Positions 26,836 to 48,930 of a DNA stretch of 64,000 nt are shown here, one piece after another. The position numbers were made by a program, and so were the translations under genes. The DNA is taken from NCBI GenBank assembly GCA_025917655.1, contig CP084616.1, positions 1,116,001 through 1,180,000 of the forward strand, in the 5' to 3' direction. Every line of letters starts with the position of its first letter. Within the stretch, counting starts at the first letter, position 1. The stretch comes from Chlorella sorokiniana (taxonomy: Eukaryota; Chlorophyta; Trebouxiophyceae; Chlorellales; Chlorellaceae). The notes under the pieces were generated by a model. The model had not been told where the DNA came from, did not search any database, and was given only the letters and a program-made list of their open reading frames with translations.

Positions 26836-29112
26836 TCACAGAGAGGCCAGCAGGCCCACCGCCGCCACGCTGTTGGCAGCCAGCGTGGCGGCGCCGCCAT
26901 AGTGCTCCGCCTGCAGCAGGAGCTCCATGATGGCGGCCTGGGGGGGGGGGGGGGAGGGGGTCTTCAGGTGACAAGGTGGGGCAGCAGCGGGGGCTTGCGA
27001 GGGCGACGGGGGCGCAAGTGAAGGGAATTGGGAGTGGGCATCGGTGGAGGAGGAGGAGCGCACAAAGCATGCCGCCCGCGCTTGGGGCAGCCAATGCTGC
27101 GGCGCCATGCTGGCCAGCTCCAGCAGGCGAGGCGCGGAAACGGTCGACAGACGCAGCTGAAGCCGGCCAGCTTGCCTGCCTGCACACAAACCCCACCCCA
27201 CCACCACCCGCCCTGTCTAACCACACACCCCTGCCCACCTGCTGCTGCTGCTGCGGCGCAGGCACGCGCTGCAAGGCCAGCAGATAGGCCGCCGACAGCT
27301 GGGGGAGAGCCCCGCTGCTGCGGCGCCCGGGCGCTGCGCCGCCACCAGCAGCCGCTGCAGCAGGCCGTCGTGCGGGTGCTGCGCCGCTGGCAGCTGCGGG
27401 CGGCAGCCGCCCAGCCGCCCGGCGGCTGATGCGGCGCTGCCCAGGGGCGGGCGCCAGGGTGGCGGCGGCAGTGCTGGTTGGCAGGGCGTGCCAGGCTGTG
27501 CTGGGTGAGGCAGCAGGCTGGGAGGCGCCCAGCGACGACAGTGCACGCCCCAGGGCAGCCAGCGGGCCCGCTGGCGACGTCGGCGGCTGCGGCAGCATGC
27601 CGCCCCAGGGTGCACCTGCTGGAGAGCGCGCGGCGGCGGGCGGCGGGCCGGAATTGATGCCATTGGCCGCAGCGGTGGGGCTTGAGCCCCCAGCAGCGCC
27701 GCCAGCGCCGCGACCGCCGACCCAGGCGGCGTGTCCTGCTGCTGCCGCTGCTGCTGAGAGGCGAGCGTGGCGGGGGCGGCGGGCGCGGCTGGGCGCTGGC
27801 GGGCGGCTGCGGCGCGGGGAGCCCGCCCCGCTGCCCCCTGCAGCTCCGACACCATCACCTCCAGGTGCCGCCGCAGCACCTCCAGCGGCGCCTCCGCCGC
27901 CATCGCCTCACCCGTCGCCCCCTGCTGGCGGCCATCCGCGCCGCGCTTGGGCGGCCTGCCACGCGCTGGGGGCTGGGCGCCACGCTTGGCGCCGCGACCC
28001 GCCTGCTGCCTTGCCGCGGCGGCCTCCAGCGCGCTGCGCCCGCCGCGCATGGTGGCCGCCAGCGCGGCGGCCTCCGCGCGCTGCGCCGCCAGCACCTCGG
28101 GCGGCGTGGCGCGCTGCTCCGCCACCAGCCGCGCCGCCAGCGCCTCCAGCTGCCGCGACTCGCGCATGCCCGTCAGCAGCGTGCGCAGCTGGGGCAGCGA
28201 GCGCGCAGAGCGGATGCGGGACCACAGCTGCACGTCCTGGCGGTACCTGCGGCGGCAGCGGCAGGGGCAGGGCGCCACGTCAGCGCCTCTGCACCCTCCC
28301 CCGGCCCGGCAGCCAGCAGGCGGGGCCGCCTGCCAACAAGCGACCAAGCAAAGCCCCTGAAACGCGTAGTCAGCTGGCCAGCCAGCAACCAGACTGCTGG
28401 CTTGTCCCCATGGAAGCCCCCCCCCCCCCCACCCCCCACCCACACCCACAACCGAACACCCCTCACTTGATCATGGGGAAGTTGTATTCGTCGGGGTGGG
28501 GAGCGCCGCCGCCCGCGGTTGGGTGCAGCTGGCGCCACGCGGTGCCGATGTCAAACGCCACGGCAGCCTGCAGAACGATACGAGCGCGCGGAGCGTCGGC
28601 GGGCCGGTCAGCACACAGCCGGCCGCCTTGGGCCAGGGCGCGGCCAGGCGCGTCAAACAGCAGGCGCTGGCGCGGAGCGGGGCTGTGTTGGGCCCGGTGC
28701 CAGGCGGCGGCGGCGGCGGCGCCGCAAGCTTGCCTCCTCCGCGGACTTGACCCTCGCAATGTCGACGTTGGCCCGCTTCTCGCCGGGTCGCTGCGGCATG
28801 CGCAGGCGCACGTCCCAGGGCAGCTTGTAGCCGGAGCCGTCGCCGCGGAAGCGCAGGCCGTGGTAGGAGCGCAGCAGGGCGTCCACGTCAGCGGGGCCGG
28901 GACTGCCGCAGCCGCGCCGCCGCCACCTGGCGGCGGAGCCGGGCGTCGGAAGGCGCGGCCGGGCGCCCCGTCGCGCGGCGACGGCGTGGGCTCGCCGCTG
29001 CCGGGCTGCGCGGGGTCGGCCACCGGGCGGGGCGGTGGCCGCCGCCTGCGCCCAGGGAGGGACCTGGCACGGAAGCCGGTGGCGGCGGGCCCGCCGCAGT
29101 GCTGGGCGGCAT
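26836..29112 (-). CDS. AP2-like cluster gene 1 (one AP2-like segment)
   Basis: Putative DNA-binding regulator. The AP2/ERF-like segment (about 28470-28900) reads SYHGLRFRG, YKLPWDVRLRMP, KRANVDIARVKSAEEAAVAF, DIGTAWRQLHP and DEYNFP, the YxG..W..I..AEEAA.A.D...YNFP pattern of AP2 domains. A helical motif follows (YRQDVQLWSRIRSARSLPQL, RQLEALAARLV), then a basic low-complexity stretch with GRPPKRG, which resembles an AT-hook. The C-terminal domain shared across the cluster reads [20 protein letters not shown] and MELLLQAEHYGGAATLAA. The stop is TGA at 26836-26838. The start is taken as ATG at 29112 (MPPSTAAGPPPP); the N-terminal domain of the other members is absent. Frame breaks lie at a G run, 28893-28896, and probably near 29030. 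An acceptor at 26939-26953 follows a C run of about 13. Confidence 0.65.
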
Positions 29113-30049
29113 GCGGGCGCTGCTACAGCCTCAGGGGGCGGGACTGAAGCCGTCTGCCTGCCTGCAGGGGGGGCATCGTTTTGGTGGGCGTGAGCAGGGC
29201 CGCTGGGAGGCTGACGTCGTGTGCTGGCAACCTCCAGCAAGCGGCAGGGTAGGGACCTGGAGCTGGCGGCCTCTCCGCGGCGAGCAGGTCTGAGCGCGCA
29301 CGTGCGTGACCAGGAGGGCCGGCTCGCAGGCCAAGCGCCGGCAACCAGGCGAAAAACGGACAGGCCGTTCCAACCTGGCTGAGCGTTAGCCGTCACCAGC
29401 CAGGGCCGCAGCGCCGTATCGAGTATGACCCAAGGCTGCTACCCGGTCGAGGCAACGGTGGAGGGGGCTGTGCAGCTGCCGCAATCTTTGTGGGGGATGA
29501 TTGATACAGGAGGCCGAGCCCGCCACTGTGGCCGGCCTCTTCCCGCCTCAAATCAGCCTCCAAGCTTCGCAGAATGTGCATGTGGCACCTGAACTTGAAT
29601 AGGCCCGAACCACGTGCTGGCCTCCAGCACGCCGCACGGGGCTGCCCTCACGAAGGAGCAGAATCGGTGAGCTTATCTAGGCTCCTAAGCTTTATCTGCT
29701 CGACCAACCCCATGAGAAGGGCTCCCGCGGGAGGGGGTCGGCCCAATGAACCGACCTGCGGCACTGGCGGGCCGGCCGGCCTCCTCCCTCCTGGCCATGC
29801 ACAACCATTCATAAGGGGGCGACCGTCCAGGTCTCATGCCTCTGTACGACCGGAAACAGCCAGGCTGTGCAATTGTAATAGACGGGCAGCCTCGGTTTAG
29901 TCCGCGGAGCGTGCAGCGGGCCGGAAGATGGCGCGTGCCCGGCGCCGCCCGCTCGACGCGGAATCGACCCGCACCCTCCTGCCCCCACCCCTGCATGCCT
30001 TTCACACACCCGCCATCCATCTGGGTCGGCAGCGCTCAGCAATCAAGGA
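29113..30049. other. Intergenic region inside the AP2-like cluster
   Basis: About 940 bases upstream of AP2-like gene 1 and downstream of gene 2. It should hold the promoter of gene 1. No coding exon could be supported. Confidence 0.4.
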
Positions 30050-33000
30050 TCAATCCAGGCGCGCGATCTTGATGGCGGCCCGCAGCATGGCCACCACGCC
30101 TCCGAGCTCCCCCGCCCCAGCAGCATCCGCAGGCATGCCAGCTGCTGGCGCTGCGCGGCGGCGCCCAGCGCCTGCACGGCGGGCATGAAGGTGGCCGCCA
30201 GCTCGACGGACAGCCCCGCCTGCCGCCCCGCCGCCGTACGGGAAGCCTCCGTCAGCGCCACCAGCAGCGGCACGGGGTCTGAGGGGTCCTCGCCGCCGCC
30301 GACGACGCTGCCCGGCGACGCCGCAACAGGCGGCGCCGCTGCCAGCGGCGGCGGCAGCGGCGTGGCAGGCAGCGGCTCCCGCTTGGGCTCCAACACCTCC
30401 GCCTTGCGGTGCCTGCCGCGCCTCATGGGTCCAGGGCCAGCAGAGGCGGCGGCAGGCGCCTCCGCCTCGGCAGCAGCCGCTGACCGCGCGGCAGCAGCGT
30501 TCCGCGGGCGCTCCACCGCCGCGGTGGCGCCGGCAGTGCCGCCGCCGACGACCTTCTGCCGCTTGGCGGGTGGCGCCGCTGCCGGCACGTGCTGCACTGC
30601 ACCTCGCTGCTGCCGCTGCTGCCGCTGCTCCTGCCGCTGCTGCGCCTGCTGCTGCCGCTGCTGCTGCCGCTGCTGCGCCTGCTGCTGCCGCTGCTCCTGC
30701 CCGCTGCTGCCGCGCCTGCGCCTGCTCCTCCCGCTGCTCTTGCTGGCGCCGCTGCTCCAGCTGCTGCCGCGTGAAGTGCTCCAGCCAGCCGCAGCCGCGC
30801 AGCTTCCTGCGGGGGGCCCGGCAGATGCGGGCGCTGCCAGGCCTGCCTGAGATGGCGCCAAGAGCTCTGACACGGCTCAGGGTTGCTGGCTCGCCGATGG
30901 GAGGCGGGTTGACGCGGCGCAGCGGACGCAGCAGCCGGGCCCGCTTGGCGCTCGCCCACCAGTATATCCCCCCCCCACCCCCCACCCCACACACACGTGC
31001 ACACTCCAACAGCCGCACGCACCACCACCACCACGCCTGCGCACCCCACACACCCATGTGCCGCTCACCCACCCAACCAGGCGCGCCCACCTGAACAGCA
31101 CACGCAGGTCGCCCTCGTGGTCTGCTGCCAGCAGGCGCCCCACACCTCGCCGTCTTCCCGGTAGCTGCAGCGCGGCCGACCAGGCAGGGCGGCAGGCTGC
31201 GTCAGAGCGGGCCGCGCCCGGGCAGCCCACGCCCGGCACGGGCAGCGGCAGCCGTGGCAGCTCCTGCCACCCAGCTCCTGGGGCGCCCGCACGCCCGGCG
31301 ACTGTGTTGCTTGCTGCTGCAGGGGCAGCGGTGCAGCGGTACTGCCCCACCTGTCCAGGGGGAAGCTGTACTGCTGGCCCTCCACGTCGCCGTCCGCCTT
31401 GTGGGTGGCCTCCCGCCAGATCAGCGCCATGTCAGCGGCGGCGGCGGCCTGTGCAGGGGACAGCCGCAGCAGGATGAGCTGCCCGCGCAGCCTCGGCGGG
31501 GCGGCAGGGCAGCTGCATTCGCATGACGCAGCGCTGCGCAGGTGAATGACGGGGTGTAACCACGGGGGCGGCGCTGCGAAGCGTGAAGGCAGGCGGGCGG
31601 CGCACCTGCGCCCGTGTGGCGCTCTGCAGCACCACCTTTGCCTTTTGATCCAGCATCAGAGTCGTCCGCCAGGGTAACCTGCCCTCCGCTCGAACGAAAG
31701 AGACCCTGTGGTACTGCGGGCCGACCTGCGGTACAGGCGGTACCACTCTGAAGTCGTCAGCCGATGCTTCATGACAGGCCAGACGGGAAGGAGCATGCAG
31801 TCAACGCCCAGACCCTGGCCCCGCCTTGCGTCAGCCCTCCCACCCCCGGCCTTGCCTTGGCCTGCACAGCCGGCTCCGGCGGCGGCTGTGCCGCCGCCAC
31901 ACTGAAGCGGTTGCGCCGCAGCGTCGCGGCCATGCGCGCCAGGCGGCCGTTGCTGTCCAGGGTTTCGAGGTACGATTTGAGCTGGGTGAGGGTGCGGCAG
32001 CGCAGCAGGCCAGGCGTCACATCGATGAGCTTGTGGTACCTGCTCACGAGGAAGGGGGAGCAGCAGGGCGCCAACTTCAAAGCATCCAGCAAGGGCGACG
32101 CGCTGCTGCCGCACTTCAGTCGGCGACAGCCAGCAGGGAGAAGGGGGTTTCTTCGGGGGCATTGGGAGCTTGGGAGCGCAGAGAGCCGCTGCCTGCTGCC
32201 TCTGGGAGCCACTTCCTCCGCAGAACAGGGAACAGGTGCAAGGGCGGCGACAGGAAGGCAGCGCTGGGGGAGCGGCGCCAGGATTGCCCCAAGGCCGGGC
32301 AGGGGAGGGCCGCAAAATCAGCAAAGGACAGCAGGGAGGGGGAGGGCAGCGGAAGGAGTACGGTGCTGGCGGGGGGCGGGGCGGCACAGCAGGGGCAGCA
32401 CAGCGTGCACAGCGCACCCCTCCAGCTGGAAGTTGTACTCCTCGGGCACCCACGACAGGTCGCCAGACAGGAAGCCCAGACGCTGCTCGCGCCTGGGGAC
32501 ACGGGGTGGGATGAGGGGGAAGCGGCGCGTTGCGGGCACGGGCGGGCAACAGCGCGGGGCGGCATGCAAGCAGGGGCACAGCTGCTCAGCAGGGACGTTG
32601 CGCTCGCGGCTGAGGCTGCGGCGTGCAGCGGCGGCCGCCTGCCGCGCCCCACCCCGGGGGCGGGAGGGAGGGCCTCACCAGAGCAGGGCCAGGTCGCGCG
32701 CCACCCCCGCCTCCGCCTGGCTGCCGCACTCGCACAGCGTGCCCGCCCAGCGCGTCCCCCCACCACGGGCGCCTCCTGCGCGGCACGGGGAGCAGCAGGC
32801 GAGCGGCGCGGCTGTGGCTGTGCGGAAGACTGCCGTGAAGAGCGGATTGGCTGGCTGCACGGCACCCGAACCAACAGGGCCCCAGCGTCCCACCCCACCC
32901 CTCTTCCTCGCTCGCTCAGAGGCAAAGGGACTGAGCGCACATGTGGGACAGCTCACAGCAGCCCTCCTCGCCCCCAGGCTGCCCACCTCTTTACCCCCCT

Positions 33001-34582
33001 CAACCCCCTCCCCCCCCCCCCCACACACACACATACCTGCTTGGCATCCAGCATGGCAACCATGGTGGCCCGCCAGCGCGCCTCCTCCCCGCCGCCCACC
33101 CGCGCCACTCCCTGGAACTCGACGCTGTCGCCCGCCTCCCCATTCCCCTCGCCGCCGCCCTCGGGCCCGCCCGCCGCCGCAGCTGACGGGGCCTGCCGCC
33201 CGACTGGGCAGGCCGCGGTCGGCGCCTATGACCGCGGCCTGGGGGAACGTGCGGCCGTACATGTCCCGGAGGCTGCCTTCGGCGGGGGCAGCGGTGCGGC
33301 GCTGGCGGGAGCGGTACCGCTCCGCAGCCGTCAGCTGCTCCTGGAGCCGCCGCGCCAGCAGCTCGTCCCGCTTCTTGCTGTCCCAAGGGGTGTTGGCTGC
33401 GCCCCGCCCTGCTTTGACGGCTGCTGCTGCGGCTGCACCTGCTTCCGCCTGCCCGGCTTGCGCCGCTGCTTCTGCTGCTGCTCGTTTGTCGCCGCAGCCA
33501 CTGCTTCTGCTGGCTGCTCCGTGGTCGCCGCAGCCACTGCTTCTGCCGGCTGCTTCCCAGCTGTCGCAGCCACTGCTCCTGCCGGCTGCTCCTCAGCTGC
33601 CGCAGCCACTGCTCCTGCCGGCTGCTTCATTGTCGCCACAGCCACTGCTTCTGCTGGCTGCTCCCCAGCTGCCGCAGCCACTGCTCCTGCCGGCTGCTTC
33701 ATTGTCGCCACAGCCACTGCTTCTGCCGGCTGCTCCCCAGCTGTCGCAGCCACTGCTCCTGCCGGCTGCTCCTCAGCTGCCGCAGCCACTGCTTCTGCTG
33801 GCCGCTGCACAGCGAGGCCTGGCTCAGGCTGCAGCTCCGGGCGCGTGCCTTTGCACTGTGGGGCAGCAGGCGCATGCGGCCCACCCCGCTCATGCACAGC
33901 TGTTTGGTCTGAGCTGGCTTCCTGCTTCACAAGAATGCGTGGCGCGGGCTGCTCCAGGTCAGCTTCTGCGCGGCCGCCGCCCGGCTCTGCGGTGACGGCG
34001 CTGTCCGCGCCTGCCCCGGCTGCGGCGCTGCCGCCATCCGCCGAGGCTGCGCTGCCGGCCTGCTGGCTGTCCGCGGCACCCTCCGGGCTGTCGGGATCGT
34101 CGGGCTCCTCCGCCGCGGCTGCAATCATGGCGTCCATGATCGCCTCCAGGCTCTCCCCCTCAGGTCCTCCATTGCGCCCGCCAAGTCGTGCATCGGCCGG
34201 CTGAGGGAAACAACCTCCAGCGGCGTCCCGGCATCCAGCGCCACCTTGATGCGCAGGCAGTCCGCGACGTGCTGCAGAAGAACAACGAATCCAGTTGTGA
34301 GCAACGGGCTCGATCAGGAGGAGCTGGGGCCGGGAGCGATGGCATGCGCCGTGGACGAGCCGGCAGCGGCAGCGGCGGCCGCGACAAAAGGAGGTGCAAA
34401 GCAGGACAGGCAGGGGCCACGGCAGCCGGATGTGGGGCAAATCCTAGATATTTGAGTCGCGCCTGTGCTATGGGCTGAGAAAGAGGCGCCAACTCGCGCA
34501 CAACCACACCCGCAACTGTCAAGGAGACTGCATACTGGTCGGAGCTCGACTCAGCCTGCTTGATCTCGATTTCGACGTCCAT
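30050..34582 (-). CDS. AP2-like cluster gene 2 (two AP2-like segments)
   Basis: Start ATG at 34582, MDVEIEIKQAESSSDQYAVS, the N-terminal domain shared with cluster genes 3 and 4, closing with SLEAIMDAMIAAAAEEP. Then come a Glu/Ala-Val repeat (33483-33806) and ELLARRLQEQLTAAERYRSR. AP2-like segment 1 (32420-33140): VEFQGVARVGGGEEARWRAT, TRWAGTLCECGSQAEAGVAR, EEYNFQLE. Linker motif: YHKLIDVTPGLLRCRTLTQL. AP2-like segment 2 (31360-31740): YHRVSFVRAEGRLPWRTTLM, AAAADMALIWREATHK, QQYSFPLDR. Second linker: YREDGEVWGRLLAADHEGDL. A Gln/Ala-rich stretch and the C-terminal domain (LACLRMLLGRGELGGVVAML) end at TGA 30050. I join 31.8-34.6 kb with 30.0-31.7 kb because gene 4 has the same domain order in one unit; a split into two genes is not excluded. 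C-run deficits lie at 34155-34159, 31138-31141 and 30109-30113. Confidence 0.6.
30598..30735 (-). repeat. CAG-rich Gln/Ala-coding repeat
   Basis: Interrupted CAG/GCAGCAG triplets on the minus strand inside AP2-like gene 2. They encode an Ala- or Gln-rich stretch depending on frame (Gln in the frame that continues downstream). It lies between the second linker motif and the basic segment AKRQKVVGGG. Confidence 0.75.
33483..33806 (-). repeat. Coding minisatellite, 36-bp unit, about 9 copies
   Basis: Nine imperfect units of 12 codons, consensus E/K-QPA-G/E-AVA-A/V-A-x-x, inside AP2-like gene 2 between the N-terminal domain and the first AP2-like segment. Two alternating subtypes (QPAGAVA and QPAEAVAVAT) show higher-order duplication. 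Confidence 0.85.
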
Positions 34583-34926
34583 GGTTATGCATATAGCAAT
34601 CGACAACGGGTTAGGAAGCAGGATTGAGGAGCCGCCAAAGGTACGATAGCACAGTACAGGTAGGGTTGTTTCTATGCCTCCCTGCAAACGGATGAAGGTC
34701 GATCGGCGCACAGCATGAAAAGCGTAGTTATCATCCCACACGTGAGGCCATCCCCAGAAGAGCCCAAGCCGCATTGGGTGGCATCAAGACTCTTGACCAC
34801 AGTGTGGACTGAGGCCCAGTGGCGGCAGCATGCACACTTCTATTGCAAAGTCTGGATCATGGATCCCTCACAGTGGCGTAGAAGGGTTGTGGCAGATGCC
34901 TATTGAACTGAGGTGGCAGGCACAGA
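34583..34926. other. Short intergenic region, AP2-like genes 2 and 3
   Basis: 344 bases upstream of the start of gene 2 and downstream of gene 3, both on the minus strand. It should contain the gene 2 promoter. No gene is visible. Confidence 0.4.
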
Positions 34927-36722
34927 TCATGATCGGCGGCTGATGTGAGGCGGTGAAGGCCCATCCCGCACTTCACCAGCGGCCGCCAAGAGGGCCACCG
35001 CCGCTGGCAGCATGTCTGGCGCGCGCAGCAGCAGCTGCAGCATCTCGGCGCGCTCCTGCTCCAGCTGCTGCAGGGCCCGCAGCTGCACCGCCAGCTCCTG
35101 CCGGACCGCCTGCTCAGCTTGCTGCTGCCGTGCCATGAAGGCGCCGATGGCGTGCGGCGTGAGGCCCGCCGCCGTGGCGCCTGGCTTGCGGCAGGCTTCC
35201 ATCAGCTGCTGCAGCAGCTGCATGTGGGGCAGAGCGCTGCTTCCCGGCACGGCTTGATTGGGCATGTCGGCGGCCTGGTGAGCGGCCATCGCCGCTGCAT
35301 CCGCGGCCCCATCGGGGAGCGCGCAGCCTGCGGCTCCCGCTGCGGGCTGGCCGGCGTGATGCGTGCCCGCTTGCCGCATTCCGCCAGGCCACGCAGGTCG
35401 CTGTCATCGCTGTCACTGCGCTCCGCTGGCGGGTCCTCCCGGCATGGCCTCAGCGTCGATGTCGCTCTGAGCCTCAGCGTGCACGCCGCGGCCGTCGCGC
35501 CGCGCCCCTGAGGCGCATCCCCGCCGGCCTCGCCAGCAGCAGCCGCATGCGGCGAGTGCCCGCCTCGCAAGCGTCGCGCCAGCTGCTTCAGCTTGCCGCT
35601 GTCCAGCAGCCGAATGGCCAGCGCCTTCAGACCCGGCACGTCTGTTGCCTGCCTCAGCTGCCGCATCAGGCTGGCATCCTCCTCATACCTGCAACCACAT
35701 AACATTTCCTGACAATTGCAGCGGTCATGTACAGTGAAGGTCGGCGACTGAGGGAGAGTGGGTGCAACTGTGCAGACATGCAGCCACGTACATGCATCCC
35801 CCACGCGCCTGTCTGCGCTGTGCGCCATTTGCGCTGTGGGCCCGTCCAGGCCGCGCAAGCCCCGCCAGAGGATGCCGATGTCTCGCAGCACCACGGCAGA
35901 GCTCCGGGTGGGGCAGGTGCACAGCGGGAGCCTCACGTGGCGACCTTGCACAGCGGCCACCAGCCCAGGACGGAAGCTAAACATGCCATTGATCCTGCGC
36001 ACCGTCTCAACACCCACAGCCATGGCCTCTGCCTCGTCCGCTGCCTCAGATGACTCGCTCGACTCCCAGCTCCCAGGAAGCGCCGCCTTGTGCAGGCGTG
36101 GATCGCGGCTGGGCGGGCGGGCGCGGGCTGCGCCACCAGCTGACACTGCCCGTGACTCGAGGCGGCGCAGCCGGGAGCATGGGCCCCGCCCCGCCGCCTC
36201 TTCTTCCTGCTGCAGCTGCCGGGCGAGTTCCTCGTCAACGACAACGTCCTTGCAGCCTTCCAACGAGGCCGCTGCGTGCTGGCATGGCGGAGGGGCATCG
36301 GTGGCGCCCCCAGCTGGCTGCGGCTCCGCAGGCAGCGAACGGGCCGCTGTGCTCGTTCCCACCTCGTCGCCTCCTGCGCCGCTGCTCTCCTTTGCGGAGC
36401 CGGCCGCAAAGCCCTGCAGCAGCGCAATCAGCTCATCCAGGCTGCAGCTCTGCAGGTCATGACGCTCCTGCTCAGCTGTGTAGCCACCCTGGTAAGGAGG
36501 CTGGTCGTCCGCCGCTGCCAGCGGCAGCGCAGCCTCCTGCAGCCCCTGCAGCTTGCGCTTAAGCAGGAAGGCCGCGTCCTGGGCCGCGCCTTGCGTGAGA
36601 AAGGGCCCCAGCACGTGAAACCGCCGCTGGGAGAGCTGCTCTTGGGCCGCAGCCTCCCTCAGGTCGAGCCGCACGAGCCAGCGGGTGCCGTCTGGAGCCA
36701 ACTCGACCTTGGAGGAGGTCAT
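34927..36722 (-). CDS. AP2-like cluster gene 3 (one AP2-like segment)
   Basis: Start ATG at 36722, MTSSKVELAPDGTRWLVRLD. The N-terminal domain ends in DLQSCSLDELIALLQGFAAG. Next is VVVDEELARQLQQEEEAAG, matching ELLARRLQEQ of gene 2, then one AP2-like segment (about 35830-36010): RINGMFSFRPGLVAAVQ, RHVRLPLCTCP, SSAVVLRDIGILWRGLRG. After an intron comes the helical motif YEEDASLMRQLRQATDVPGL and KALAIRLLDSGKLKQLARRL. The cluster-wide C-terminal domain reads LLQQLMEACRKPGATAAGLT, PHAIGAFMARQQQAEQ and LLLRAPDMLPAAVALLAAAG, with stop TGA at 34927. A G-run deficit at 35314-35317 shifts the frame before the C-terminal domain. The shared domains make this a paralogue of genes 2 and 4 that lacks one AP2-like segment. 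Nuclear regulatory function is inferred. Confidence 0.65.
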
Positions 36723-38126: not shown

Positions 38127-40538
38127 TCACGCCATCTGCTTGATGAGGATGCCCACCTTGCCGCGCACGCCCCCTTCTCCAGGTACTCATGAGCCTGGGC
38201 CATCTCTTCCAGCGCAAAGACCCTGAGCACGCGGCATGCGGATGCATCAGGTAACACTGAGCAGAGGCATGGTGCGGGCGCATGGGTGTGGGTGACAACG
38301 GCAAAGGCGGAAGAGCGGTGCTCATGCAAGTCAGCGTGGCGCTGCCGCCCAGCAGAGACAGGGCCTGCAGCTTAGCACCCACCTGTCAAGGTGCACTTTG
38401 AGCTTGCCTTGCGCCAGAAGCTCAGCCAGCTGCTCCAGCCCGCGGGATGCCTTGCCGGTCAACATCACGCTGCATAGCAGAGCATGGCGGCGAGAGGCAA
38501 AAGGGTTGGCATCAACAGCCGGCAAGTTAAGGAGGCTAGGTAATGCAAGGAAGAGCATGCAGCGGTCGACTGGTCGCATCCGTGCGCAGCACAGGCCAGA
38601 ACTGCACAATCGAGCGTGCGGGCTCCCACAGGCTCCACGTCTGCTGCTGCTGCCGCCACTCACAAGTGGTACTTATGGCCGAGGCCAAGCTTGCCCAGCA
38701 GCGTCTTCCAAGTCACGCCCAGCAGCAGTGACAGCATGCCGCCATACCCAACCCGATCGACGTCGGGCCCCGTGGCGCCCACAGCCGCGAGCTGGCCGCC
38801 GCTCTTGAGCAGGCGCAGGCTGGCTGCCTCGTACCATCCCCGATCACGTCCAGAATGAAGTCAAATTTCTCCCCAGTGGCGGCAGGGGACTGGTTCCAGG
38901 GGCCCTGCAGCAAGGGGTGGGGCAGCGGGAAGGGATTAAGGGCAGGAGCGCCACGGAAGGCGGCAGCGCTTTCATGCAGCGCCCTACAGCCCAGCTGAAA
39001 GCGCGCGCAGGGCCCTCCTGCCTGCGCTGCCCTGCCGGCACTCGCCTGCCAGCCAGGCTGGCACCAACCTGTGTGTAGTCGATGGCTGCATCTGCGCCCA
39101 GCGTCTGGGTGACATATTGGACGTTGCCTGTGCGGCAGGTGGTCGTCACGTGCGCCCCCTGAGCCTTGGCGATCTGCAGGAGGTGCGGCGTGCCGGAGGC
39201 GATGAAAGCGCAGCTCGGCTGCAGCCAACCCTGCCCAAGCTGGCCCAGCACCGAACCTGCACCCGCATCCCCCCCTCCTCCTCCTCCTCCTCAGCTTCGC
39301 AGACGTTCCGTGCCGTGCCACATAAGCCTGCCGAGCCCACCCACCTGCACCGCAAAGCCGCCGACGCCACCGGCCCCACCGTGGATTAGCAGCCGCTTGC
39401 CCGCCAGCGGCATGGCTGGCTCCAGCGCCTGCCACGCCGTCATGCCGGCAAAGGGCACCGCGGCAGCGTCCTGCAGAGACACCCCGGGGGCACCCGGCAC
39501 ACCTTGTCTTCATCCACAGCCACGTACTCTCCGTACGTGCCTGCATCAACACATGGCGGCTGCTCGATGTTGTGTGCCGCAAGCAAGTGAGGGCGGGCAC
39601 ATGGCAGTGCCCGCGGGTGGCGTGCCCTCGCCGGGCGCCAGCTCAGCAGACGCCAGCCAGCTGGAGCCTGGACCCGCCCACCTCCATGCTCCCCTGACTT
39701 CAGATGCTGCTGTGTCTCCGCAAACACGCGATCGCCCTTTTGAAACTGCGTGGCACAGCCACAAACGAGGCATTTGCAGCGGCCAGCCAGAGTGTTCAAG
39801 TCAGACGGTGCATGCGCCTGGTGCCAGCAGCAGCAGCACTGCTGGCTGCCGCAGAACACGCCACCCACCTTGCTGCCCTCTGGCGCCTCCGCCACCACGC
39901 CCGCCAGGTCCTCTCCCAGGATCTTGGGCAGCGTGACCGGGAGTGGGGCAAAGCCCTGCGGCAGTTCAAGGGAGCCGGACAGTGGACGGGATGCACCGGC
40001 GGGCGGGCTGCTGCAGGGGCCAGCATACAAGTGCCGTCCAAAAGTCACGATTCAAGATGTGAGCGGTTCACCGATCGCATCTTCCTGCGCGGGCATGAGG
40101 AGAAGCGGCTGCGCGTCAGGAAACAAAGCCATATGGCATGCATGCCATGTTGCGCGAGCGAGTGCAAAGCGTGCCGCGGGCAAGTTGGCCCACCGTGCGC
40201 CCTCACAACCAACCCCAACCACGAACACAATTTACATCACTGAAACCTTGATTGAAACAATTAGTGCATGCAATCATCTCACCAATCTCCTGCGTTGACA
40301 GAGGTGGCTGCTGCCTCTACCAGCACCTGCGGCGGTGCGGGCGCGATAGCGGGAAGGTTATGCAACTGCAACCCAAAAGGTTTGCGCCCGTCTTCCACCA
40401 CCCACCGCCCGATTCAACAAATCGCACCTGGTTGGGCTTCCGCACGGGCACAGGCCAGTCGCTGTGAAACTCCAGCACCTCGGAGGCTGGACCTCGGCGC
40501 CTCATAACCACCGCCCGCATGGTTTCAGGCACTGACAT
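38127..40538 (-). CDS. Zeta-crystallin-like NAD(P)H quinone oxidoreductase, copy A
   Basis: Medium-chain dehydrogenase/reductase of the zinc-free quinone-reductase class (zeta-crystallin, RTN4IP1, chloroplast-envelope QORH); reduction of quinones or enones with NADPH is expected from the family. Start ATG at 40538, MSVPETMRAVVMRRRG. GroES-like part: ILGEDLAGVVAEAPEGSK, KGDRVFAET. Rossmann part: LLIHGGAGGVGGFAVQ with the GxGxxG nucleotide loop, then IAKAQGAHVTTTCRTGNVQ and TLGADAAIDYTQ. The C-terminus reads VFALEEMAQAHEYLEKGGVR, then GKVGILIKQMA-stop at 38127. About ten exons include a 13-base micro-exon (40072-40084, KMRS). Frame breaks at base runs lie at 38170-38174, 38838-38841 (copy B has one more base there) and about 39483. 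It differs from copy B near the N-terminus (MSVPET / MPMPKT). Confidence 0.8.
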
Positions 40539-40985
40539 TTTATCTAATAAGTTATAGCTCGGACAAAGCCAAGGAAAGCCCTCCTGTCCAGCGCTTGGAG
40601 CGGGTACGGCACCGTACCGCACTCAGTACGCCATGCTTGCGATCGCTTGCTGCGCGCTCATAGCGGGAGAGAGAGCAATTGTGGTTGTGTTGCCAATTCA
40701 ACAACCCTGAGGCTGGCACTTTGTGGGTAGAGCAGGTTGTGCCGCCGGCGGGCGCCCAGGACGCGCCTCTAAATACTGTTCTCGTTCTGCCATCAAATCA
40801 TACCGCAGACATTTCACATACGTACTGATGTAACGAGCAAAAAGCTTTGTTGTACAGGAAATAACAGCCTATGCCAGCACAACTGTTGGCTGCACGTGCT
40901 TAAGGTGCCGCCAGCGGCGTGACGAGAGCTGTGCAGCCCTGGAGCTAGGCCGGGCGTAGCCCTGGAGCTCTGGCTCCTTCTCCCC
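40539..40985. other. Spacer between the duplicated units
   Basis: The promoter side of oxidoreductase copy A plus the 3' flank of the 79-residue gene, copy B. The duplication edges fall at about 40632 and 40885. No gene or mobile element is visible at the junction. Confidence 0.45.
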
Positions 40986-41540
40986 TCACAGCGGCACCGT
41001 GTACTGCAGCTCCCGCTTCTCCGACCGGTCGCCCTCCTGTGCCTCCAGCTCCACTTCCAGCTCGATCGCCTTGCCGTCGTCGTCCAGCTTGGCCTGGACA
41101 ACCGATGAAAGTGCAGCAGGGGGGTGAGTGCCGGCGCTGGAGAGGAAGGGTTAGAAGAACCTGAAAACCAATGCTGTGTGGTAGTTACTACCACAATGCA
41201 CAAGCACAACTGACTGCCAGCCTGCACAGCGTGTGGCTGGCTGCTGGCGCACGGTTTGGCCAGCACGAGCGGAAGCGGCAGGCTGCTAGCGCAACCAGCA
41301 GTTGGTGCCCGGCGCACCTCAACTTCAATCTCCAACTTGACCTGCAAGGATGCCAAGCGCTTTCGTGTGGCGAGACGGCGACAAAACCCAAGGGTTCAGC
41401 CGCGATCCTCTCCATGCTCACCGATCGCTCACCTTCTTCTGCCCCGACTTGATGGCGTCGATCACCAGCTGAATCAGGGTGGCTGCGCTGCTGTCCAGCG
41501 CCTCAGACAGCTGCAGCTTATTGTAGCCCGGCAGAGACAT
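40986..41540 (-). CDS. 79-residue protein of unknown function, copy B
   Basis: Exons 41433-41540, 41318-41341 (24-base micro-exon) and 40986-41093 repeat the 108/24/108 layout of copy A. The translation is the same in every exon; one synonymous difference is in the Asn codon of YNK. The introns differ in length and sequence from copy A, so the duplication is not very recent, yet the protein is unchanged. Function unknown. Confidence 0.8.
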
Positions 41541-42022
41541 GGCAAGCAGCAAGGGGATTGGCAAAAGACAGGGAAGGAATGGGAAGATTAAGTCAGGTGC
41601 GATCGAGGGCGATGGCGCGAACCGTGTCAGCGCAGCTGGTAGAGAATCTGGCATGCTCAGCGCGCGCGACATGGACGGTTTCGCCCTGAGCGGCACTCCT
41701 TCAATGTGTGGCACACTGAAGTGGAGCCATTGTTTGGGTTTCATGAATGTTGTGATATCCAATGTACTGTCATGATGGGCCTGTGAGTCAGTAGGCTAGG
41801 ACGCCCTTGCACAGAAAAGCGTCTTTATTGCAACAGATTGAGGGCAAGTATCTCACTGCATCAAAATAATGCGGACAAAAAGATAAAGAGATGGTGTTGT
41901 GATTTAGAACAATATCATGCATAGGTCAGAAGGGGCCCAAGTTAGCCAGGCTCGCCGGCGGCACACCTTCGCCAGACGGGCGTGCCAGCAGCGGCGCAAC
42001 GGGCTGCAGGCCCGCCCTGCGC
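41541..42022. other. Intergenic region within duplicated unit B
   Basis: 482 bases corresponding to 37594-38126. The first ~125 bases upstream of the 79-residue start are well conserved with unit A; the rest is diverged. Confidence 0.5.
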
Positions 42023-44454
42023 TCACTCCATCTGCTTGATGAGGATGCCCACCTTGCCGCGCACGCCCCCTTCTCCAGGTACTCATGAGCCTGGACCATC
42101 TCTTCCAGCGCAAAGACCCTGAGCACGCGGCACGCGGGCGCATTAGGTAACATTGAGCAGAGGCATGGTGCCGGCGCATGGGTGTGGGTGACAACGGCAA
42201 AGGCGGAAGAGCGGTGCTCATGCAAGTCAGCGTGGCGCTGCCGCCCAGCAGAGACAGGGCCTGCAGCTTAGCACCCACCTGTCGAGGTGCACTTTAAGCT
42301 TGCCTTGCGCCAGAAGCTCCGCCAGCTGCTCCAGCCCGCGCGAGGCCTTAGCCTCCTGCATCACGCTGCGCAGTGGAGAGGCAGGGCGCGGCGCTGAGAG
42401 ACGGATGATGGCAGCAGTGGTTGCCAGGGGGTGAGGCTAGGGAAGGCAAGGAAGAGCATGCAGCGGTCGCAGCCGTGCGCAGCGCAGGCAAGCACTGCCC
42501 AACCAAGCGCGCTGGCTGCCACAGGCTCCACGTCTGCTGCTGCTGCCGCCACTCACAAGCGGTACTTATGGCCGAGGCCAAGCTTGCCCAGCAGCGTCTT
42601 CCAAGCCGCGCCCAGCAGCAGCGCCAGCATGCCGCCCCACCCAACCCGATCGACGTCGGGCCCCGTGGCGCCCACAGCTGCCAGCTGGCCGCCGCTCTTG
42701 AGGAGGCGCAGGCTGGCTGCCTCGTACCATCCCCCAATCAGGTCCATAATAAAGTCAAATTTCTCCCCAGTGGCAGCAGGGGACTGGTTCCAGGGGCCCT
42801 GCCGCAAGGGGTGGGCCAGAGGGAAGGGGTTAGGGGCAGGGGCCCCACGCAAGTCGGCCGCGCTTTCATGCAGCGCCCTACAGCCCAGCTGAAAGCGCGC
42901 GTAGGCGCCTCCTGCCTGGACCGCCCTGCCAGTCCTGCCGGCACCCACCTGCGTGTAGTCGATGGCTGCATCTGCGCCCAGCGTCTGGGTGACATGCTGC
43001 ACGTTGCCGGTGCGGCAGGTGGTCGTCACGTGCGCCCCCTGAGCCTTCGCGATCTGCAGGCATGGCGGACGGTAACAAAGCGCAACTTGCCTGCGCTCAA
43101 CCGGCCCAAGCGGGCCCAACACCCAACCCCCACCCGCCTCCCTCCTCCTGCCTCCTCCGGGCCTGCACAGCCGCTGCATGCCTCGCCAAACAAGCCTGCC
43201 GAGCCCACCCACCTGCACCGCAAAGCCGCCGACGCCACCGGCCCCACCGTGGATCAGCAGCCGCTTGCCCGCCAGCGGCATGGCTGGCTCCAGCGCCTGC
43301 CACGCCGTCATGCCGGCCATGGGCACCGCGGCAGCGTCCTGCAGAGACACCCCGGGGGCACCCGGCACACCTTGTCTTCATCCACAGCCACGTACTCGCC
43401 GTAGGTGCCTGCAGCCGCACACGCTGGCTGCTCATCAGTACACCAAGCAGATTGCCGACTCACACCGGGAGGGTGTGGCGGGTGGAAGCAGCACCGCAGC
43501 ATGCGAGGCAGGTTGCCCGATGGGGCCGTGCTGCTCGCCCGGTCGCCAGCTCAGCGGCCGGTCGCCAGCTGAAGCCAGGACCCACCCACCTCCATACTCC
43601 CGGCCTTGAGGCCCTGGTCCGTCTCAGCAAACACGCGGTCGCCCTTCTTGAACTGCGCCAGCGGGGTGGCACCGGCAGCAGCTGGCAGTTGGGGCGCTGG
43701 GCCTCGCGCCAGGTGTCAAGCTGACCAGAGCGAGAGCGGCAGCATGTGCACCGGGTCCAGCAGCAGCAAGGGCGCTGCAGCACACCCACCCACCTTGCTG
43801 CCCTCTGGAGCCTCCACCACCACGCCCGCCAGGTCCTCCCCCAGAATCTTGGGCAGCTTGACGGGGATGGGAGCAAAGCCCTGCGGCGGCGAGGGGGCGC
43901 AGGAGGGTGGGCGGGGCGTGCACAGGCCGCAAGGTCTGCTGCGGGGCTGGAGCATGGGAGCACCGTCACCGTTGCGGGAGCAAGGACAACAGGGGCTCTT
44001 ACTGATCGAATCTTCCTGCCCAGGCACGAGGGACGCATGGGGTGGGGCAAAGGCGTGCAGTGTGAGAGGCCCACAGCGCAGCAGGTCGGGAGCCGCCGTG
44101 CACCCTGCGCGTCGGCCGCCGCCCCCCCACACACACACACAACCCCAATCCAAACCACGCAAACGTTGATGCTTGATGGCTGCCTTTCCACTCACCACTC
44201 TCCTGCGTTGACTGAGGTGGCTGCCGCCTCAACCAGCACCTGTGAAGGTGCGAGGAAGCGGCGGCGATAGCTTTACATAACTGCAAACCAGCGGGTTGTG
44301 GCCCACCCTCCCACCGCCGATTGCTGCAACCAACGACATGCACCTGGTTGGGCTTCCGCACGGGCACAGGCCAATCGCTGTGAAACTCCAGCACCTCAGA
44401 GGCTGGACCTCGGCGCCTCATGACCACCGCGCGCATGGTTTTAGGCATCGGCAT
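42023..44454 (-). CDS. Zeta-crystallin-like NAD(P)H quinone oxidoreductase, copy B
   Basis: Start ATG at 44454, MPMPKTMRAVVMRRRG. Exons traced: EVLEFHSDWPVPVRKPNQ; VLVEAAATSVNAGEW; a 13-base micro-exon 44003-44015 (KIRS); PVKLPKILGEDLAGVVVEAP; FKKGDRVFAETDQGLKAGSM; GTYGEYVAVDEDKVCRVPPG, then LLIHGGAGGVGGFAVQ (nucleotide-binding loop); TGNVQHVTQTLGADAAIDYT; EKFDFIMDLIGGWYEAASLR; GLEQLAELLAQGKLKVHLDR; and the last exon ending GKVGILIKQME-stop at 42023. No Zn-binding Cys/His pattern is apparent, as in quinone reductases. At 42731-42735 this copy has five C where copy A has four, and here the frame is open. It shares two other run-linked frame breaks with copy A (about 43353 and 42065). Confidence 0.8.
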
Positions 44455-44746
44455 CTTGTCAAATACGTTGCCGCTCGGGTGAAGCCAAGGAAAGCCCTGT
44501 ATCCATCCGCTTAGAGCGGGTACTGCACGCCGTACTAGCAAGCGCATAGAGCGCGCTTGAATCGGGATCTTGGACAGTAACGCACAAGATGCGACGATTG
44601 GCAGTGCACAAAGTGATTTGGGCAGGCAACTGCACACAGCCTGGCCAGGGCGTGGCGGCGACGGCCCGGGCGGCGGCACAGCATGCTGTCTGCTGCCAGT
44701 GAGAGTCTGGACCCGCTGCCTGCATGCCTTCCGGCCTCCTGCCAGG

Positions 44747-47700
44747 CTACTCCTGCCTCGCCTCCTCTCCACTGGCTGCCTCCATGACCGCGGCGGCCGC
44801 CGGCCAGGTGGTGGGGTGGGCCAGCAGCAGGCGCAGCGTGGCCGCTTGCCGCTCCTGCCGTGCCACCAAGAAGCGGCCCACCAGCTGTGGAGTGATCCCG
44901 GCAGCGGCCGCGCCCGGCTGGCTAGCTGTGGCTGCCAGCTGCTGAACAAGCTGCAGCTGGCTGCTGGGCGCAGGCTGGCCGGGTATGCCGGGTGCTGCAG
45001 GCTGGCTGCCAGCTGCAGCTGGAATCGGCTGAGCAATGTGCGCCAGGGGAACCGCTGCAGCAGGGGTGGCAGGCGGCGGAACAGCTGGGGCCGGGGCAGC
45101 CGCTGCGCCAGGGGCCAGGCCGGGTTGGGGGCTCGCCCTCGCGGCAGTCCTGACCCGCTTGGTTGAAATGGCGGCCGCCCGCGTCCAACGGGGCTGCCCA
45201 GCCGCCCCGTGCCCAGCCGCCACCTCGCCCTGCTGCCCCTCCTCATGCTTTACGGCAGCAGCAGGCGACGCGGTGTCGCCGCTGCCGCTGCCGCTGGGCA
45301 GGAGCCCAGTGAAAGGCGAGCCGGCGTCCTCCACTTCCGGGCTGCCCCGCTGGGCCTGCACCCGCCGCGTGAGCGCCGCCAGCTGGCCGCTGGACTTGAG
45401 GAGCAGCGCAAGCGCCTGCAGGGCGGCGGCGGTGCCCGCCTTGCGCAGCCGCCCCAGCAGGGCCCGGTCCGACTCGTACCTGCGAGCGCAGTACGGGGTG
45501 CACGGCATGACGCCCCAACAGGGAGGGCCTAGCGCCTTGCACAGCGGCGCTGCGCATAGCCCGCGGCTGCAATGCGGCAGAATGAGAGGCTGGGTGGCTG
45601 GTAGCCAGCCCAGCACCTGGTTGGCGGAGAGGTAGGCTGATTATGCCCCCTGGGAGCCCCCCCCACACACACACACACCCACACACACGCGCGCACACCT
45701 GGCAGCCGGGTGGTAAAAGTCCAACGGGCGGCGGCGGCCGCGCACGTCCACCCTCACGCCGTGCAGGCGCTGCCACAGCACGCCCAGGTCGCGCAGCACG
45801 ATGGCCTTGCGTGTTTTTTGGGGGAAGGAGGGGGAGGCACAGTGGAGACGTGTGTGTGTATGGTGGCAGGTGAGGGGGCCGCGCGCGCTCTGGAAGAAGC
45901 GCGCTCAAACAGCCCGCCAGCAGGCGGCTCAGGCTTGCGCCCAGTGTGGCAGCACATACGCTGGCCTCGCGCTCTGCACGAGCGCCGGGCAGGGCTGAGC
46001 TTCGCCGGCGGCGCGCTGCGTGCGGGTGCAGGGCGGGCGCCGCGGGTGGCCCCGCCCACACCTGGTCCAGGGTGGGGCAGGCCGCCATGCGGGCGAGGCG
46101 CACGGTGCCCGGCAGCTGAGGGTGTGGCTCGTAGAAAACGGGGCGGAAGGTGCTGCCCACGCGCTGAACGCCTGGGGGCAGGGCGCCGGGCAGCGCGTGG
46201 GCGGCGCCTGTCGCGCCTGCGGCCCCGGCCCGCCGCCGCTCTCTTCCTCCCCCCTGGTCGGCGGTGCCGTCGGCATCGTACTCTGCATCCGACCCGGATC
46301 CCCTGCCCAGGCTGCCGCTGTGCGCGCTGCGGTGGGGCTCCAGCGTGCTGGGGGCGGGGAGGCCTCCCACAGCCACTCCCCGTCAGATGCCAGCGTTGCC
46401 GCTGGAGGCGGCGCCCTCTTGCGCGCCGTCAGCGGGCAGTGCCGGGCCGGCGTCCGCTGCTTGCGCTTGCCGCCCCCGCCGTGGGCTGCGGGATGCAAGG
46501 CTGCGCCATCCGACAGTGTTACGTCCTCTGCAGGTAGGCCGCCCTGCTCCTCTAGCCCCGCTTCCCCCGGCACCTCCCCTGCCTCCAGCCCAACAAGCAC
46601 CTCTGCCACAGCTGCCGCCTGCACCGACTCCCCAGGCTGCTGCCCCCGCCCAGCAAGCTGCCCGCTCGCAGCAGCCGCCTGCGTGCCGCCGCCGCCCTCG
46701 CCGCACGCTTGCGCCGACAGCTTGGCCAGGCCGCCGCAGTCTCGCTGGCTGCGGATGACTTCCCGCATCGCTTCCACGCTGTCGGCTTGCTGCAGCTGGG
46801 CCACCAGCCTGGCGTGCGCCTGGTAGCTGCCGGACAGGATGGGAAGCGCACGGTGAGGCAAGGCTTTGCTGCGAACGGTCTCCAGGACGGGCACCCGCGT
46901 GGCAAGCCCACACCCCAGACAAACGGTGCTCAGCAACAAAGCCAGCTGGCGCACCTGGAGAGCGGCATGGCGTGCCTCGCGGCGCGGGCCTGGGGCGGCG
47001 CCGCCCCTGCAGCTCCCTCCACAGCAGGCACAGGTCCCGCGCCGCGGCCGCCTCTCCCGCGCTGGCGCACGCGCACAGGCACACATTCCTGGTGGCTGCC
47101 TGGCCGGCCAGCCGCACCTTCACCTGCGCCTGGTACCTGCAGCGATGGCCCTGGCTCCTCTTGCCAATGAGGTACACGCCCTGCGGCAGCCTGAGCCCCG
47201 GGGCAGCTGCAGGCTGCGCCTCGACAAGCGGTGGGGGAGGGCCGCAAGCATCGGGGCGTCGCCGGCAGTCGGGGGGCTGGCGCGCCGCTCGACCCCGCAG
47301 CAGGGGCGGGTGGCGGGAGGTGTTGTCCGGCAGGAGCAGAGGGCTGGGGCGCGGGGCTGCCTCTGAAGGCGTGCGGGCCCTCCGTGCCGCCGCTGCGTGC
47401 GGCTGTGCCGCCGTCTGCGCCTTCGCCCTGCACAGCGGCGGCCACGTCCTCGCTTTTGCCCTCCTTGCTCCCAGCCGCGGCTCCCCCCGCCGCTGGCCCC
47501 TCCTCCTGTGTGGCGTTCTCCTTCCGGCTGGGCGGGCGCTGCCGGACAGGGATGAGCGTCAGGCGGGCCGCCAGCGGGGTCGGCACGCTCCGCCAAGGCA
47601 GGCTGCCCCGCCGCGGCGCTCCCTCCGCGTGCTCCTGCAGCAGCGCCACGAGCTCCGGCAGGCTGCATGCCGCCAGGCCCGGCAGCTCGTCCCCGCCGCC

Positions 47701-47898
47701 GCCCTGGCCAGGCGCGGCCGCGCCCGCCGCCGCTTTTTGCTGCAGCAGCCGCGCGGCCTCGGCCGCCGCGCTGTGCGCACGAAAGGGCCCCACGCGCCAG
47801 CAGCGCTGTGCCTGGGCGCTCTGCTGCTGCCCGAGGTCCAGGGTGGCCGCCCAGCGACCGCCGGCCTCCTGCACGATCTCGACCTTGGCCTGCTCCAT
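44747..47898 (-). CDS. AP2-like cluster gene 4 (two AP2-like segments)
   Basis: Start ATG at 47898, MEQAKVEIVQEAGGRWAATL. The N-terminal domain continues RCWRVGPFRAHSAAAEAARL and AACSLPELVALLQEHAEG, matching gene 3. AP2-like segment 1 (about 46970-47180): GVYLIGKRS, RYQAQVKVRLAG, ASAGEAAAARDLCLLWRELQ; helical motif YQAHARLVAQLQQADSVEAM. AP2-like segment 2 (45710-46170): VGSTFRPVFYEPHPQLPGTV, RLARMAACPTLDQ, AIVLRDLGVLWQRLHGV; helical motif YESDRALLGRLRKAGTAAAL and LLLKSSGQLAALTRRVQ. The C-terminal domain reads LQLVQQLAATASQPGAAAAG, TPQLVGRFLVARQERQAATL and WPAAAAVMEAASGEEARQE-stop (TAG at 44747). Base-run frame breaks occur in the middle. The cluster-specific domains and double AP2-like layout match gene 2. 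Transcription-factor function is inferred from the AP2-like segments only. Confidence 0.65.
45659..45700. repeat. CA/GT microsatellite in intron
   Basis: Interrupted CACACA tract on the plus strand, so GT on the transcribed strand, just inside the donor after the exon ending DFYHPAA in AP2-like gene 4. Confidence 0.75.
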
Positions 47899-48439
47899 TC
47901 GTAATAAGATGTACAGGCAGACGGGGTGTGAGGCCTTGCGGGTGCACCCTGAGCATGGGCCCTTCCCAGCGCCACAACGCCAAATCATCAGGTCGCCATG
48001 GAAAGAAAGAAAGAAGTGAGCGCCGACCGCTGTGCTGTCCTGCTGCATCCGTCGCTGACCGCTGCCGCTTGCAACCATCTCTCGTGTCGGCATCGCACGA
48101 GAGAGCGAGGCGAGGGCTGTGCTGTCCTGCTGCATCCGTCGCTGACCGCTGCCGCTTGCAACCAGTTCTCGTGTCGGCATCGCACGAGAGAGCGAGGCGA
48201 GGGCGCAGGAGAGGCAGCAGCGACCAAGCAGAGCAGGCGCTTGCCTCCAGCAGATGCCCATGGGTTTCTGCCACCGAGGCGCGCAACCGCCTCTTCTGAT
48301 GTGTTACTATCCATGCACATGCCACACGAACCCTGTGTGAAACAGCGCATGAATGCAGAGTCAAACAGGTTGCACGAGTTGCTGGGCGCCGCTGGTTCTG
48401 AGGGCAGCCCTGAATCGAGCTGGATGGCGCATCCGGGAC
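47899..48439. other. Promoter region of AP2-like gene 4
   Basis: Upstream of the ATG at 47898. It contains a two-copy 87-base direct repeat (48029-48202). No coding sequence is supported. Confidence 0.5.
48029..48202. repeat. 87-bp tandem direct repeat, two copies, each with a hairpin
   Basis: Units 48029-48115 and 48116-48202 are nearly identical; ACCATCTCTC against ACCAGTTCTC is the difference seen. Each has inverted arms TCTCGTG / CACGAGA around a 9-base loop. The pair lies 130-305 bases upstream of the start of AP2-like gene 4. Confidence 0.9.
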
Positions 48440-48930
48440 GGGCGCAAGCCGGCGCCCCCGCCGTGCCACACCGCTGCCTCCATGACCACCAGCGCCGCCG
48501 CCCACACGCCAGGCTGGGCCAGCAGCACGTGCAGCGCATCCTCTCTCTCCAGCTACTGCTTGCGCTGCGTACGCTCATGTTGCAGCCTGGCACGCTCACG
48601 CTGCGCCTGCTGCGCAGCCACACAGCGCCCCACCTCCTCCGGAATGAGCCCCGCCGCCGCCGCCGCTGCTGCTCCTGGCTGCGCTGGCACCACTGAACAG
48701 ATATGTCAGGTGCTGCGCCAGCTAGGGGGTGCTGCGGGCTGTGCCGTCAGCTGCGCAGCCAGGCATGCTGGACTGGCGGCAGCCGCAGGGCGGGCTGGGC
48801 TGGGGAGAGGGTCGTTGGCAGGTGCCCAGTTTGCTGGAAGTGCTGCTAGTGCAGGTGTCACAGCGGGTTGGGAGGGCGTAGCGGCCGGTGGGGACGCCCT
48901 GCAAGCTGCAAAGGGCGCGCGGCCCGCTTT
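48440..48930 (-). pseudogene. Relic of an AP2-like cluster gene (C-terminal domain only)
   Basis: On the minus strand the sequence can be read as a decayed copy of the cluster's C-terminal region: an Ala/Pro-rich part (RASPPAATPSQPAVTPALAA), then [40 protein letters not shown] and LHVLLAQPGVWAAALVVMEA. This follows QPGAAAAGITPQLVGRFLVA ... AAAAVMEA of gene 4. An in-frame TAG interrupts it (after ERTQRKQ), and TGA and a frame change lie near 48710. No N-terminal or AP2-like segment is found upstream. Unlike the base-run breaks elsewhere, the TAG does not lie in a homopolymer, so this is likely a true relic. Confidence 0.65.

Follow-up and report, generated by a model that had tools for sequence, protein, structure and literature searches.

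According to published work, ANT proteins carry a pair of AP2 domains and, between them, a conserved linker ~25 residues long (PMC6361745), residues Arg150, Arg152, Arg170 and Trp172 of AtERF1 are cited for GCC-box binding (PMC3602543), and algae display lineage- or species-specific expansions of transcription factor families, including AP2/ERF in Emiliania huxleyi (PMC4827209). Here, we evaluated a cluster of AP2-like genes in Chlorella sorokiniana, located in a 64,000-nucleotide stretch of contig C11 (C11:1116001-1180000, hereafter “the window”; positions without a contig name refer to it) from a 38.8 Mb genome in 15 contigs. From sequence comparison, we consider that its four genes (g1 to g4) and one relic probably represent diverged AP2-class regulators, i.e., one branch of a modular family whose C-terminal domain (“C-domain”) is common to GATA-finger proteins, and we assign this reading a probability of about 0.6.

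Shared parts of a minus-strand gene cluster

A first-pass annotation of the window had described four minus-strand genes and a relic in which an N-terminal domain (“N-domain”), a helical motif behind each AP2-like segment, and a C-domain recur in fixed order. Reading the minus strand in three frames, we recovered g1 to g4 and the C-terminal relic with their parts in that order, including the proposed copy numbers of the AP2-like segment (one each in g1 and g3, two each in g2 and g4; copies of the latter are denoted “a” and “b”), and found no N-domain in gene 1, as had been noted. The C-domain has a core of ~30–40 residues and ends each of g1 to g4, while in the relic neither an AP2-like nor a helical part was seen adjoining it in the window.

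The similarity between copies was evaluated in a held-out test, in which each of 19 segments, together with 2000 shuffled versions of it, was scored by a profile built from the sister segments. Every shuffle was outscored by all six AP2-like segments, by five of the six helical motifs, by three of the four C-domains, and by two of the three N-domains. The failures all belong to gene 2: its first helical copy was matched by 6/2000 shuffles, its C-domain by 1/2000, and its N-domain by 357/2000, so that the latter is an eye-level assignment only. When the held-out profiles were run against 1117 six-frame open reading frames (ORFs) of the window, the held-out piece came ahead of all untrained ORFs for 13 of the 19 segments. 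Those that missed the first rank were the g2 N-domain (no match), the g2 helical copies (ranks 40 and 64 for the first and second), and the C-domains of g1 (rank 5), g2 (rank 2), and g4 (a piece removed by the 7-mer filter); the ORFs ranked over the g1 and g2 C-domains include those of the relic. Overall, the presence of shared parts in g1 to g4 and the relic is confirmed, with held-out profiles beating all shuffles for every segment tested outside gene 2.

The helical motif opens a new exon in 5 of 6 modules, with a single base between an AG and the Tyr, and four of the introns before it are modeled as phase 2, with the donor of the first g4 module unsettled; in g3, the frame is open before the motif with or without an intron. 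An extra phase-0 intron lies just inside the AP2 helix start in g1 and in the second modules of g2 and g4. In total, 12 introns were modeled (one optional, in g3), ten of them GT-AG and two GC-AG (at 28733 in g1 and 34462 in g2), and another GC-AG intron was seen by eye in one of the genes on contig C1 described below (L034).

Links to AP2 domains and to a GATA-finger array

The first-pass annotation had assigned the AP2-like segments to the AP2/ERF domains. Homology to AP2 is supported by profiles through two bridging genes on contig C1, the first found by a weak match of a g4 query (E 0.042) and the second ~21 kb away (E 3.3e-6), in opposed orientation, each combining AP2-like modules with GATA-like fingers and a C-domain. 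Cluster modules aligned with C1 modules at an hhalign P of 6.7e-12, and C1 modules with canonical AP2 domains at 5e-9, none of 300 column shuffles being as good in either case, and the C1 profile outscored all 2000 shuffles on 7/7 canonical AP2 sequences. The cleanest test is the reverse one, for which profiles were run on 1395 ORFs of the C1 loci and of loci on contig C6: the top three for the cluster-only AP2 profile were the AP2 exons of the C1 genes (independent E-values, iE, 3.5e-6, 4.6e-6, and 3.7e-4). Helix A, D and W are invariant in 10/10 modules, which as trimmed (cluster and C1) span 104–123 residues, i.e., an AP2-homologous segment plus a helical extension, and sample readings of the second C1 modules are RYVGVARITNSTKLAAAI and REHLGSFSTAAEAAVVRDVGIIWKQLQGG.

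A joint profile of these ten modules retrieved WRI1 (7wq5) first in the PDB, with a whole-chain E of 2.3e-7 and the next match at 0.066. In the weaker of the two aligned stretches, the YNFP..Y start of the extension falls on the LNFPAETY behind the first AP2 domain of WRI1, and the helical motif is for this reason best read as extending the AP2-like module at its C-terminal end. A YNFP-like end separates AP2-like segment and extension in g1 and in both g2 modules. That the extension matches the linker start of AP2-class proteins is suggestive only.

The C-domain ties the cluster to another set of genes. On contig C6, a tandem array holds 19 pairs of a GATA-type finger and a C-domain in order, plus one finger without a C-domain and one C-domain without a finger; its second, Cys-rich fingers are 20 by count, one of them split (22 rows). 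Cluster and C6 C-domains aligned at an hhalign P of 8.5e-8 (0/300 column shuffles), and in this comparison the copies of g1, g3, and g4 each outscored all 5000 shuffles. In the reverse test, a cluster-only C-domain profile picked out 35 stretches with E no higher than 1; nine C6 copies and one C1 copy made up the best ten. At the genome scale, the C-domain of one C1 gene matched 16 places, namely itself and 15 on contig C6, while the C6 consensus gave 22 matches: 20 fall in C6:2205120-2240658, another is on C1, and the last is a weak match (E 0.089) at a different place on C6. The C-domain of the second C1 gene is weak (iE 7.6e-4), and in the PDB the best match to the C-domain had an E of 0.33. 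For the fingers, C6 profiles matched both C1 genes (seven matches, iE 8e-11 to 1.3e-8). The Pfam GATA cut-off was passed by 2 of 3 array stretches of the genome, and in a genome search with Pfam GATA by 5 array places, with 3 below, among those listed of 20; the four C1 finger stretches stayed below it (best 18.9 and 17.3 bits vs 26.8). The family had been proposed to be lineage-specific, which it may be, and locally expanded, which is right for the cluster and too narrow overall, as the C-domain also occurs in the two C1 genes and the C6 array.

Within the C6 array, we determined the ratio of non-synonymous to synonymous substitution rates (dN/dS) from pairs that are not independent. The two fingers had medians of 0.50 (20 copies) and 0.54 (18 copies), against 0.22 for the C-domain (12 copies). 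A wrong-frame control covering the C-domain and first finger gave 1.12 and 1.59 for the former and 1.13 and 0.78 for the latter. The C-domain is thus the most constrained of the three C6 parts measured. Separately, we observed an internal 7.5-kb duplication of the array (C6:2207701-2215152 vs C6:2213272-2220723, 94.4% identical), which is either recent or an assembly effect.

Since the C1 genes carry both kinds of DNA-binding parts, a partnership between AP2-type and finger-type proteins is hinted at, in the manner of a “Rosetta stone”. On the AP2-class reading, the cluster proteins would be nuclear and would contact DNA through one AP2-like module in g1 and g3 and two in tandem in g2 and g4, with the helical extension packing on or extending each module, and the C-domain would serve as a docking element by which AP2-type and finger-type proteins assemble together or recruit the same co-regulator. 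Going further, one C-terminal docking module may be common to AP2-type (cluster), finger-type (C6), and dual (C1) chains, the AP2 and GATA halves being exchangeable and the C6 array varying the half that reads DNA and leaving the docking half unchanged; we regard this extended scheme as tentative and rather unlikely as a whole. Were these readings true, Pfam-based annotation of this organism would overlook a group of AP2-class regulators, the C-domain would provide a testable tie between two transcription factor classes usually kept apart, and array, C1 genes, and cluster would together represent DNA-binding parts shuffled onto one constrained tail. Under the modest reading alone, what remains is an AP2 branch that has diverged and been duplicated locally, and its extension could be sought in other algae.

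Protein searches with g3 and with a C1 composite had scoring confined to the 7994 candidates sharing most words. The g3 query retrieved a 506-residue metagenome ORF (P0001) that corresponds to the first part of g3, and the C1 composite returned nothing. A search with the array protein retrieved three metagenome proteins (P0002-P0004) whose finger stretches match C6 copies without a difference, over 116 residues in each case. The C-domain could be read in two of these proteins, and the third stops before it. In the titles and abstract openings that made up the literature searched, no protein with AP2 and GATA fingers and no such C-domain was named. The expansion itself is not new, given the factor-family expansions reported for algae (PMC4827209), and what appears new relative to this literature is the shared tail and the genes with both AP2 and fingers.

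Gene models and neighboring sequence

Coordinates of the cluster parts and related loci are collected in the table.

Table. Features of the AP2-like cluster (window positions) and of related loci on contigs C1 and C6.
Feature	Position	Strand	Description
Gene 1 (g1)	26836..28889	-	One AP2-like module, helical extension, AT-hook-like stretch, C-domain; N-domain and start codon not found
g1 AP2-like segment	28467..28868	-	YHGLRFR...SAEE, AAVAFD...YNFP; interrupted by GC-AG intron 28733-28568
g1 helical extension	28108..28245	-	Begins behind phase-2 intron 28466-28247
g1 C-domain	26836..27378	-	Frame shifts within
Gene 2 (g2)	30050..34582	-	Candidate N-domain, two AP2-like modules, C-domain; several frame changes
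g2 candidate N-domain	34158..34582	-	Two exons, GC-AG intron; no support in held-out test
g2 first AP2-like segment	32418..33123	-	Pieces 1 and 2 separated by frame change
g2 first helical extension	31904..32038	-	Weak in held-out test
g2 second AP2-like segment	31353..31716	-	
g2 second helical extension	30749..31164	-	Two exons; internal frame change
g2 C-domain	30050..30279	-	Weakest C-domain copy; internal frame change
Gene 3 (g3)	34927..36722	-	N-domain, one AP2-like module, C-domain
g3 N-domain	36399..36722	-	
g3 AP2-like segment	35829..35999	-	
g3 helical extension	35559..35687	-	
g3 C-domain	34960..35232	-	
Gene 4 (g4)	44747..47898	-	N-domain, two AP2-like modules, C-domain; two joins between parts unsettled
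g4 N-domain	47620..47898	-	
g4 first AP2-like segment	46986..47189	-	One exon
g4 first helical extension	46694..46825	-	
g4 second AP2-like segment	45699..46160	-	Two exons
g4 second helical extension	45344..45478	-	
g4 C-domain	44750..44965	-	
Relic	48466..48708	-	C-domain only; in-frame stops at 48708 and 48555; ORFs 48364-48705 in window scans = relic
C1 gene L033	C1 ~1514400-1518900	+	Two AP2-like modules, several GATA-like fingers, C-domain
C1 gene L034/L035	C1 ~1529000-1537300	-	Two AP2-like modules, several GATA-like fingers, C-domain (weak)
C6 tandem array (L048-L051)	C6:2205120-2241447	-	20 GATA-type first fingers, 20 C-domains

The N-domains of g3 and g4 may be a third, more diverged AP2-like module: they align in register with AP2, at a level that is not significant (8/300 and 17/300 shuffles as good, and 33/300 with g2 included). 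The N-domain had no match in the PDB and was not found among the 1395 ORFs used in the reverse test (best iE 0.11). Its genome query did give 13 matches, 8 of them on contig C12, where the three ORFs read on the right strand resemble mTERF-type repeats by eye; these matches were treated as false. The eight weak C12 matches span 1487614-1699963 and possibly mark another expanded family. Two further candidates were dropped. One was a match on C5 (L024, E 0.011, two stops), obtained with the AP2 query from g4, in which nothing AP2-like could be read; the other was a B3-like stretch in one C1 gene, an impression by eye for which Pfam gave no B3.

In g1, an ARGRPPKRG stretch at ~27936-27966, to which Pfam gives no match, is one that we take to resemble an AT-hook. 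Between g3 and g4 lies a neighbor outside the family, an oxidoreductase-like unit in direct duplication (36937-40617 vs 40888-44535, 78.7% identical over 3.8 kb), whose ORFs matched Pfam ADH_zinc_N_2 under the cut-off (E 0.016). Inverted duplicated blocks in four pieces, 73–91% identical, occupy 19320-21305 and 23152-25591 beside a kinase-like ORF (by eye). Rfam gave no match at gathering score across the window.

Alternative readings and comparison with known systems

Several results weigh against the proposed AP2-class assignment and its C-domain link. Pfam AP2 matched none of the six cluster segments or four C1 modules, and all four genome-wide matches to PF00847 lie outside both the window and the C1 genes. 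Cluster-only profiles, including AP2 segments without the extension, found no AP2 chain in the PDB, and the WRI1 match of the joint profile consists of two stretches that are weak alone (i-E 0.0057 and 4.8). The direct alignment of the cluster-only profile to canonical AP2 is likewise weak (hhalign P 4.7e-4, 32%, 1/300 column shuffles as good), with WRI1 R2 the sole one of 7 canonical domains to beat all 2000 shuffles, and most cluster copies have lost strand 3 (WLGTF). For the C-domain, the g2 and relic copies were equaled by 16/5000 and 14/5000 shuffles in the C6 comparison, single-sequence genome searches gave no C-domain link from the cluster to C1 or C6, and P0002 scores below the Pfam GATA cut-off. 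Finally, by eye, the frame changes in g1, g2, and g3 at points that lack a splice signal. The AP2 identity first proposed from a motif pattern is hence retained as homology by profile through the two C1 genes, while the Pfam cut-off is not reached and the direct cluster link is weak. A transcription factor family, as originally inferred, is still the best reading, but its AP2 link runs only via the two C1 genes.

How far could these patterns arise otherwise? The Ala/Gly/Gln-rich, GC-rich coding sequence could make unrelated segments look similar, and the helical motif and C-domain are indeed Ala/Leu-rich, while the N-domain query pulled matches that appear unrelated. However, such an artefact of composition is highly improbable, because shuffles of equal composition were outscored in most tests, the exon start before the helical motif is common to 5/6 modules, and the C6 C-domain has a low dN/dS in the coding frame only. 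A decaying cluster, in which g1, g2, and perhaps g3 would be pseudogenes comparable to the relic, leaving g4 as the sole source of a full protein, if there is any, is harder to dismiss: it would account for the frame changes of g1 to g3, for a clear relic, and for the g4 joins from N-domain to first AP2-like segment to helical exon, which are unsettled (by eye). Yet several breaks fall in G/C runs (by eye), domain similarity runs on across them, and the metagenome copy P0001 reads differently from the window over ~60 residues next to the g3 break. Frame breaks are also seen in one C1 gene and in an HSP70-like gene at C3:1270819-1271083 (one case among 57 matches, with 1270819-1270971 and 1270967-1271083 abutting in different frames), so that assembly indels behind the g1 to g3 breaks are plausible. 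Overall, we consider general decay doubtful.

An adaptor role is a further alternative that we view as possible, if on balance improbable. Here, the AP2-like modules of the cluster would have lost sequence-specific DNA binding and become protein–protein modules, titrating or tethering finger proteins via the C-domain. Consistent with this, WLGTF is replaced by L-C-x-C in g2a (32678-32755), g3 (35829-35999), and g4a (46986-47189), a motif with a possible structural or metal-related role, and in g4b by A-C, whereas in alignment with AtERF1 and WRI1 the second C1 modules retain LGSF/LGQY and the first ones read VSGY. The Tyr of the AYD end is an Arg in 4/6 cluster copies, and a counterpart of AtERF1 Trp172, among the residues cited for GCC-box binding in PMC3602543, is not evident in most of them. 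Against the adaptor role, g1 reads HGLRFR for RGVRQR of AtERF1 in an ungapped reading (MAFFT places the g1 gap differently) and g2a carries GVAR like WRI1, with little retained in other copies, and tandem modules with basic stretches (by eye) suit DNA binding. From these partly kept start residues, DNA binding by the cluster proteins appears plausible, and AP2-class regulators with a C-domain common to GATA-finger proteins remain our preferred reading.

On that reading, the closest known systems are AP2-class proteins of the ANT/WRI1 type, with which the cluster shares an AP2-homologous module, paired in g2, g4, and both C1 genes, an NFP-like end followed by a Tyr and a charged stretch in some copies, and WRI1 as the best PDB match of the joint profile. 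Unlike them, the cluster has no Pfam AP2 match, has mostly lost WLGTF, and carries an extension behind every module as well as additional N- and C-domains; by reading of the predicted gene models, the modules of g2, g4, and the C1 genes, each with its own extension, lie further apart than the ~25-residue linker given for ANT proteins (PMC6361745). The single-AP2 ERF family (AtERF1) is similar in the GV/GL start and AEEAA..D helix start of some cluster copies, and differs in that DNA-contact residues are only partly kept here and that a single module, with an extension, occurs in g1 and g3 only. The C6 array resembles C2C2-GATA zinc-finger proteins in a first finger over the Pfam GATA cut-off in several copies, yet it forms a 20-copy tandem array with a second Cys-rich finger and, to our knowledge, the C-domain is absent from known GATA proteins. 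Finally, the C1 genes are comparable to RAV proteins (AP2 + B3; TEM1 in the PDB list) in joining AP2 to another DNA-binding domain, the partner in the C1 genes being instead a set of fingers.

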